Origin: Phycisphaerales bacterium | GTDB lineage: Bacteria > Planctomycetota > Phycisphaerae > Tepidisphaerales > Tepidisphaeraceae | Assembly (NCBI GenBank): GCA_020847545.1 | Contig: JADLBV010000032.1 | Coordinates: 1 to 50,094 of the forward strand | DNA length: 50,094 nt | Direction of reading: 5' to 3' | Shown: positions 1,349 to 2,724 of the stretch, piece after piece | Layout: each line of letters opens with the position of its first letter | Position numbering within the stretch: position 1 is the first letter of the stretch | Made by a program: the position numbers and the translations under genes | The notes under the pieces: generated by a model | The model's input: the letters and a program-made list of their open reading frames with translations, nothing else | Databases searched by the model: none | Told to the model about the DNA's origin: nothing

Positions 1349-1434
1349 AAAAAAAGCCACCTCGATCCGCTACGGTGTACCCGAAAATTGACATTTCGGA
1401 TACCCGCCATTGCGGGTCGGGGTGGCTTTTGACG
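1349..1434 (-). promoter_or_regulatory. Highly structured 5' leader (possible riboswitch or attenuator)
   Basis: The untranslated leader can fold into a four-way junction closed by a 14-bp stem: 1352-1365 pairs with 1417-1430, with one G-U pair. Inside are CCCGC/GCGGG (1403-1407/1412-1416, 4-nt loop), CCGAAA/TTTCGG (1381-1386/1394-1399, 7-nt loop) and a 3-bp CCG/CGG (1367-1369/1373-1375). On the minus strand the closing stem ends in GGTGGC followed by seven Ts, so the closed form also resembles an intrinsic terminator ahead of the synthase start. The predicted transcription start falls at the first base of the fold. It matches no riboswitch class I can name. Confidence 0.5.
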
Positions 1435-1440
1435 CATCGT

Positions 1441-1468
1441 ATTGTCATGCTTATTACGACAGCGTCAA
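1441..1468 (-). promoter_or_regulatory. Sigma70-type promoter of the deoxyhypusine synthase-like gene
   Basis: On the minus strand TTGACG (1468-1463), a 16-nt spacer and GACAAT (1446-1441) form a recognisable promoter. Transcription would start near 1434, exactly where the structured leader begins. Confidence 0.5.
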
Positions 1469-1493: not shown

Positions 1494-1522
1494 TTGACAA
1501 TTACAGGGGGGGTGTGCTACGG
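1494..1522 (+). promoter_or_regulatory. Putative promoter of the secreted protein/OppA unit
   Basis: A perfect TTGACA (1494-1499) is followed by a 17-nt spacer and CTACGG (1517-1522), preceded by TGTG as in extended -10 promoters. It is oriented toward the gene starting at 1588 and is back to back with the synthase promoter. Confidence 0.4.
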
Positions 1523-1587: not shown

Positions 1588-2724
1588 ATGAATCGACACC
1601 TTGGCGCTCTGTTGGGGTTTGTGCTGGCGTTGGGAATGGGTTCCTGGGCCACTGCTCAATCCGCCGATTTGCCTGACAATCTCAAATCCTCCACCTCACT
1701 TGGGCCGGCGGAGATCCAGACGATTGATGCATTTGTGAAGGGGCAGATGCAGCGGATGGTCGGCAGCGACGCGGCCGCCCAGGCTGGCGCGCGCGACACC
1801 TTGATCAATCAGGCCACCCTTCGCGGCAAGCCATCCGAGGCGGCCTATCTCGACGCCTATGCGGCCGCGCTGGATCAGGCGAATCAACAGGTACCGGCCG
1901 ATGCGCCGCTGCGGGTTCGATTGAACGCGGCCATCGTCACCGCCCGTGTCGCCGAAATGGCTTCCAACTCCCGCCTGGTGGATTCGGTGTTGCGCTGGCT
2001 GGATGACAAGGAGACGCCGGTGGTTTTGTGGGGGATGAAAGGGGCGAAATTCGTCCTGACTCCGGTGCTGGACAATGAACCCTTGGCCCAACGGGTGAAT
2101 TTGCCGGAGGCGATTGTCAAAGCGGCCGATCGGACCCAATCCGGGCCGGTGTTGCAGGATGCCTATGCAGCACTCTCCCTGGGGGTGTTCAATCCCAATA
2201 CATCCAACATCAAGGCAAGCTGGCTGAATCAAACCCTGCCGTCTTTGTTCGAACTTCTGGCCGACCGCGTGAAACAATATGCCGCCGGTGTTCCGGTGGA
2301 TCCGCAGGCGGAAAATCAGGCGACCGCGATGCTGGTGCATCCGCAGATTTGGCCCAAGTTGTCGGCCCCGCAACAGGTGCAGGCGGTGCAGGCGATGAGC
2401 GATCTGATATCACTGGGGGCCGCCCGGTTTGCTGCGGCTGCGAACAACACCCCGGAGGCCGAAACGTTGGCCGCGATGGTTCAGGGAACGGCCAAGGCCC
2501 TTTGGGTGGTGGGGACGCGAACGAAAAGCACCGAACTGGTGGAACTCTCCAGCCGGCTGAGCAAGACGGATGTTCGATCTTCCGGCAAGGAAGTCGCCGA
2601 GATGGCCGAACAGGTGTATCCGCTGCTGGTGGAGATTGCTGAATTTAAGGGCGTGACCGCGCCGCCCAAGCCGGGCGCTGCGGGTTCGGCCTCGGCACCG
2701 ACCGCCGGCGGGGCGGGTCAGTAG
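1588..2724 (+). CDS. Secreted protein of unknown function
   Basis: 378 aa. The ATG at 1588 is chosen over an adjacent TTG because GGAGAA lies 8 nt upstream. Residues 1-25 form a clear signal peptide (MNRHLGALLGFVLALGMGSW, then an ATAQ-like cleavage site). The mature protein is Ala/Gln-rich and helical throughout, with no catalytic motif or repeat I recognise, and ends in a flexible Pro/Gly/Ala tail. It lies 39 nt upstream of the oligopeptide-binding protein on the same strand and may share its transcript. A periplasmic helical scaffold is possible, but I assign no function. Confidence 0.75.
   Translation: MNRHLGALLGFVLALGMGSWATAQSADLPDNLKSSTSLGPAEIQTIDAFVKGQMQRMVGSDAAAQAGARDTLINQATLRGKPSEAAYLDAYAAALDQANQQVPADAPLRVRLNAAIVTARVAEMASNSRLVDSVLRWLDDKETPVVLWGMKGAKFVLTPVLDNEPLAQRVNLPEAIVKAADRTQSGPVLQDAYAALSLGVFNPNTSNIKASWLNQTLPSLFELLADRVKQYAAGVPVDPQAENQATAMLVHPQIWPKLSAPQQVQAVQAMSDLISLGAARFAAAANNTPEAETLAAMVQGTAKALWVVGTRTKSTELVELSSRLSKTDVRSSGKEVAEMAEQVYPLLVEIAEFKGVTAPPKPGAAGSASAPTAGGAGQ

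Follow-up and report, generated by a model that had tools for sequence, protein, structure and literature searches.

The window, which is the whole stretch of DNA that was analysed (50,094 nt of a Phycisphaerales contig), carries on its minus strand at 204–1313 a gene for a protein of 369 residues belonging to the deoxyhypusine synthase family. The protein scores 564 bits against the model NF002699, named '1,9-bis(guanidino)-5-aza-nonane synthase' (cut-off 500), and 294 bits against PF01916. All models for true deoxyhypusine synthase remained below their cut-offs (TIGR00321, 216 vs 304; NF002006, 268 vs 434; NF002630, 219 vs 364) and this identity was rejected. The original prediction had assigned the gene a deoxyhypusine synthase-like product acting in polyamine metabolism; of this, the polyamine connection stands while deoxyhypusine synthase does not. 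Based on scores above cut-off, we regard the product as a caldomycin (1,9-bis(guanidino)-5-aza-nonane) synthase-type, i.e. agmatine-coupling, enzyme. Caldomycin synthase from Thermus thermophilus condenses two agmatines to form caldomycin, a precursor of homospermidine (PMC10981699). The window gene resembles it in exceeding the cut-off of an NCBIfam model named for the identical product, and agmatine coupling is a predicted activity of the planctomycete enzyme. The gene has one intergenic region in common with a divergent neighbour (1588–2724, plus strand) encoding a protein of 378 residues that matches no Pfam family. This neighbour has a TTGACA hexamer at 1494 (1494–1522, plus strand), close to the leader promoter described below.

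Promoter scanning of the minus strand found the predicted sigma-70-type promoter, TTGACG (−35; 1463–1468) and GACAAT (−10; 1441–1446) separated by 16 nt, with 9 of 12 consensus matches over 1468–1441. This was the sole promoter-like site within 1200–1700. In the order of transcription, TTGACG, the 16-nt spacer and GACAAT are followed by a predicted start near 1434, a hairpin (1429–1354), a run of seven T (1355–1349) which directly adjoins the closing stem, as had been foreseen, and the gene, whose ATG at 1313 lies 36 nt further on. In these 36 nt between T-run and start codon the promoter scan found no second promoter. Because the sole recognisable promoter lies upstream of a terminator-like hairpin, this layout implies that polymerase has to read through the hairpin for the gene to be expressed. 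The start had been placed at the first base of the fold; the predicted position is a few bases ahead of it instead, whereas the coupling of promoter and fold held up. In 26 of the 29 planctomycete members of the family described below, a promoter with 9 or more of 12 matches lies at the matching distance from the fold, and the −10 hexamer ends 9–13 nt ahead of AGCCAC, likewise in 26 of 29. Since the distance to AGCCAC is kept in this way, the transcript would begin at or just before the outermost stem of the fold (P1).

The minus-strand leader forms a fold of unusual predicted stability (z = −7.3; none of 200 shuffles was equally stable), with z = −4.6 when the region was extended into the gene. 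The plus strand folds equally well (z = −8.1) and therefore folding energy alone has no power to fix the strand. The strand was settled as minus by two covariance models, R1 and R2, which score the minus far above the plus strand (R1, 86.1 vs 38.5 bits; R2, 80 vs 39.5 bits). Their match, at 1348–1429, is the single site in the window on the minus strand.

Other genomes of the home family contain matches to the leader DNA ahead of their orthologue of the gene. In 15 of 28 orthologue upstream regions the core GCAATGGCGG ... CCGTAGC, slightly altered in some cases, follows AAGCCACC downstream of a promoter. Covariance model R1 was built from 13 of these 15 core-bearing regions (alignment A1). When it was run against 397 genomes of the class, one locus per genome was returned, confined to the home family; a weak match in one further genome (G188; L055/L099) lies inside coding sequence and was discarded. 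When 84,980 species genomes were scanned with a pattern and the matches scored with R1, Gemmatales, Verrucomicrobiota and Sorangium cellulosum were added. Follow-up searches brought the Gemmatales to 14 and the Verrucomicrobiota to 11 members. In all, 41 members are known from Phycisphaerae, Gemmatales, Verrucomicrobiota and Sorangium, i.e. from three phyla, and two degenerate members (L054, L069) stand beyond these. The original prediction had expected homologues in Phycisphaerae, which is where some members are found, yet the element extends to the other groups as well. Among the genomes sampled, no further members were seen in Myxococcota outside Sorangium, in Planctomycetia outside Gemmatales or in Phycisphaerae outside the home family. 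The presence of the leader was clustered when mapped on a tree of 41 caldomycin-synthase-type proteins, requiring 6 changes where shuffled labels required 10.5; this distribution suits inheritance together with the gene plus some losses.

Two leaders deviate. The leader at L016 has an altered core, CCCUGG in place of CCGUAG, and its caldomycin-synthase-type gene (G016:C96:3890-4945) contains one in-frame TGA, so that a pseudogene or a sequencing error is possible. At L013 (G006) a TTGACG promoter is followed by no conserved core, only by a P1-like hairpin (GAAGC...GTGGCTTC), and this leader is perhaps a decayed copy. Pattern matches in Prevotella, Psychrobacter, Synechococcus, other unrelated bacteria and one viral contig were coding or chance matches, and L130, L142, L145 and L146 proved to be plain terminators or palindromes lacking the core.

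The comparison of members defines one long hairpin of about 80 nt, very stable and interrupted by an asymmetric internal loop. Its P1 (AAGCCACC/GGTGGCUU) is near-invariant in 39 sequences, with the 5' arm AAGCCACC at the transcript 5' end (1421–1428) and the 3' arm GGTGGCTT at 1354–1361, running into the T-run. Within P1, the P2 5' arm CGACCCGC (1412–1419) covaries with the 3' arm GCGGATCG (1363–1370). P2 encloses the core RAUGGCGG...CCGU-A, whose 5' side, AAUG plus GCGG in the window (1404–1411), and 3' side, CCGU plus A (1371–1375), show little or no variation across 39 sequences of the three phyla. CCGU is able to pair with either AUGG or GCGG of the core, which gives two registers, and the invariant columns fit both. 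The pair closing the core is C-G in most members and U-A in L140. The core is capped by P3 (1376–1403), a variable hairpin with a bulged base on its 3' side; the spacing between the core strands ranges from 8 to 29 nt among members. The U7 tract right after P1 (1349–1355) has the form of an intrinsic terminator. A T-rich tract of this kind is common to most planctomycete and verrucomicrobial members; a few members and Sorangium have only a weak tract or none.

Compensatory changes support this hairpin, with covariation in both P2 and P3 around an invariant core, and the covariation among homologues that had been named as a check on the leader was thereby found. In the 29 planctomycete and Sorangium sequences, 12 of 25 pairs of the single hairpin show compensatory change, and the covariation score is 0.241 against 0.127 for shuffles; it falls to 0.094 or less when the pairing partner is slid by one to three columns. 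With Verrucomicrobiota included (39 sequences), 10 of 21 scored pairs do so, among them all four P2 pairs adjoining the core. The fold originally proposed, a 14-bp closing stem around three internal hairpins, did not survive the comparison: in 41 of 41 members the three-hairpin form is 5–18 kcal/mol less stable than the single hairpin, and its first hairpin (CCGC-AAUG-GCGG) shows no compensatory change and has one pair broken in 12 of 39 sequences. Taken as comparative evidence, these data make cis-regulation well supported, and we regard the leader as a real, conserved and strand-specific cis-regulatory RNA.

A very stable hairpin beginning at the 5' end might be a leader without regulation that keeps expression constantly low, either by partial termination or as a hairpin stabilising the 5' end. 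Such a role needs no invariant asymmetric core, kept across phyla amid covarying stems and a P3 of variable length, and we consider it quite unlikely. Alternatively, P1, being a near-perfect inverted repeat, might act at the level of DNA as a transcription-factor operator or be a mobile palindrome. Palindromic repeats did score as false positives in Gemmatales: the covariance-model matches L112-L115, L125-L129, L131-L133 and L135 are copies of a repeat containing GGCGAACCCCGCCCGCAAGGGCGG. This REP-like repeat is a near-perfect palindrome, GGCGAACCCCGCCCGCAAGGGCGG...CCGCCCTTGCGGGCGGGGTTCGCC, with a variable loop, and is found in six genomes (G751, G768, G769, G774, G779, G780), in most of them in several copies. 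The element itself behaves differently in that it is fixed in position relative to the promoter, occurs once per genome, scores strand-specifically (86 vs 38.5 bits), adjoins a U-tract and shows compensatory changes while the spacing of its arms varies by about 20 nt. A DNA-level feature is thus highly improbable.

The genes downstream of the element point to a common metabolism. In 28 of 41 members it lies upstream of a caldomycin synthase-type gene (14 Phycisphaerae, 13 Gemmatales, 1 Verrucomicrobiota). Two further members, in Sorangium and one verrucomicrobium, precede distant deoxyhypusine-synthase-family proteins of a second subfamily, which match PF01916 with 62 bits over a 237-residue part (Sorangium) and 131 bits (verrucomicrobium). 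That two very different subfamilies in different phyla have one leader indicates more strongly than anything else that the RNA is tied to the metabolism rather than to the gene of one enzyme. Eight members precede a single family of TonB-dependent receptors in Verrucomicrobiota (L105, L107, L108, L138, L139, L141, L147, L148). At L147 a His-rich ORF lies between the RNA element and the receptor gene, hinting at a metal or another substrate. One member, L053, is at a contig end, and one in Gemmatales (L117/L155 in G773, 73 bits) precedes a pilin-like gene, presumably of the DUF1559 type, and not a synthase. In Gemmata sp. IIL30 the ORF next after the caldomycin-synthase-type gene (L085, 1777–2886 in reverse-complement coordinates) is one that we take to resemble the deoxyhypusine-synthase/GSU2086 type. 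The remaining member precedes sugE (134 bits, cut-off 126). The SugE family exports guanidinium and is the commonest partner of guanidine riboswitches (PMC9788692).

With promoter, short transcript and terminator all present, the element could be the gene of a trans-acting small RNA that came to lie beside the enzyme gene by chance. Its place directly upstream of, and on the same strand as, the enzyme gene in 28 of 41 members, with functionally related genes elsewhere, speaks against this, as do its single copy per genome and a distance to the start codon of often only tens of bases, into which no other promoter fits. We give this explanation hardly any weight. A protein-dependent attenuator, in which a regulatory protein or the enzyme itself would bind the core or P1 and control termination, deserves more attention, although we judge it to be unlikely. 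P1 is conserved in sequence beyond what pairing demands, the core is invariant, and hairpins with an internal loop are often bound by proteins. However, no regulator gene accompanies the element, and autoregulation by one enzyme is difficult to reconcile with an identical core that precedes, across three phyla, two very different deoxyhypusine-synthase-like subfamilies as well as TonB receptors and sugE.

The conserved core sits within an apparent intrinsic terminator, and for this reason a cis-acting attenuator is the best explanation. We consider it reasonably probable that the element is a 5'-terminal transcription attenuator acting in cis, and most likely a riboswitch with its sensing core built into the intrinsic terminator hairpin. 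Features expected of a riboswitch are present: a conserved structured cis RNA in a 5' leader with covariation, and an invariant candidate ligand-binding core within variable stems. Transcription would start at the first bases of P1, and the emerging RNA would fold through P3, then the RAUGGCGG/CCGU-A core and then P2. Closure of P1 against the U-tract would cause termination 36 nt ahead of the gene. A ligand stabilising the core would promote closure of P1 and termination (off), while without ligand the polymerase would pass and the gene be expressed. The original suggestion that the gene could be turned on by opening the fold is plausible. An off-switch is favoured because a core held by ligand would speed closure of P1, which would also fit biosynthesis and uptake genes. 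We infer that the ligand is a small molecule, and since the enzyme couples two agmatines, a product or substrate of the pathway appears likeliest; candidates would be homospermidine or another polyamine, caldomycin, and agmatine or guanidine. SAM or SAH, also suggested originally, finds no support in the gene context.

In Verrucomicrobiota the P1 3' arm has a complement of its own across the U-tract, e.g. CGGGCGGC-UUUUU-GCUGCCCG. The alternative hairpin so predicted has a mean z of −3.0 against shuffles (p ≤ 0.01 in 8 of 11), compared with a mean z of −0.4 in planctomycetes. As predicted, it excludes P1 and is a mutually exclusive structure, as in riboswitch platforms. Its partner arm is made after the U-tract and hence cannot alone prevent termination; speculatively, the hairpin may keep RNA that has been read through in its open form. 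In Planctomycetota no general downstream antiterminator for the P1 3' arm was found, with 6 long complements against 4.5–5 by chance. Such pairing was striking only in L048, L053 and L103; over all members it was not above chance, and it was rejected as a general feature.

Several points count against a riboswitch for this pathway. The near-invariant sequence of P1, which does not covary, could also mean recognition by a protein. The TonB receptors of eight members, together with the His-rich ORF, are not obviously polyamine biology, and an off-switch is a poor match for the exporter gene sugE. Also telling against it are the weak or missing U-tract in a few members and in Sorangium, the Gemmatales member L117, which is not beside a synthase gene of this kind, and, in Planctomycetota, the outcome of the search for an antiterminator.

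Rfam, including guanidine, SAM and other riboswitch families, gave no match at gathering score in the window, in line with the original view that the leader is a structured, terminator-like RNA of no known riboswitch class. Neither did 16 related loci, each containing a member, give a relevant match at relaxed E-value. MiRNA-type Rfam matches were chance matches on palindromes elsewhere. Literature on deoxyhypusine synthase, homospermidine and polyamine riboswitches, mostly openly accessible papers beyond which a description is possible, yielded only the SAM-I-derived spermidine class and the guanidine classes. No description of the leader of a planctomycete caldomycin-synthase-type gene was found in the literature searched. 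A riboswitch function appears likely, and we regard the element as a new candidate class that is new to Rfam.

The element would work in the manner of terminator-coupled riboswitches, among which guanidine-IV (mepA motif) comes nearest in placing part of the aptamer in the terminator stem. This motif and its variant Gd4v have part of the aptamer in the terminator stem, followed by a U-tract; sugE is a common partner, and Gd4v is linked to an agmatine-acetylating enzyme (PMC12186494, PMC9788692). Guanidine-IV and Gd4v, however, comprise two hairpins joined by a loop-loop pseudoknot, with the 3' hairpin as terminator, and are on-switches or thought to be so (PMC12186494, PMC9788692). In the present element there is a single hairpin with another conserved core, no pseudoknot was seen, and the transcript starts at the first arm of this hairpin. 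The spermidine riboswitch, a SAM-I variant, likewise precedes polyamine biosynthesis genes and turns them off by premature termination in response to a polyamine, as is proposed here; it differs in having the SAM-I fold and a separate downstream terminator (PMC10853860), in place of which we find a single hairpin of about 80 nt and no SAM-I match in the Rfam scans. With ordinary intrinsic (Rho-independent) terminators and attenuators the element shares a GC-rich stem followed by U5-7 in a 5' leader, but it is much longer than usual and has an invariant asymmetric internal loop across three phyla.

It is possible, although we propose it only tentatively, that the element represents a new riboswitch class of Planctomycetota, Verrucomicrobiota and Myxococcota in which the aptamer is the terminator hairpin itself and senses a guanidino-polyamine or homospermidine-type metabolite. 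The motif is directly testable because named strains carry it, namely Zavarzinella formosa, Limnoglobus roseus and Sorangium cellulosum. Few polyamine riboswitches have been confirmed: the class for spermidine is founded on rare variants of SAM-I, and previous claims had been found unconvincing (PMC10853860). For the caldomycin/agmatine route to homospermidine, no named regulator was found in the literature searched. A separate RNA class before these genes, if true, would provide a sensor for this route, bring a candidate riboswitch to phyla that are little studied and represent an aptamer built wholly into its own terminator.
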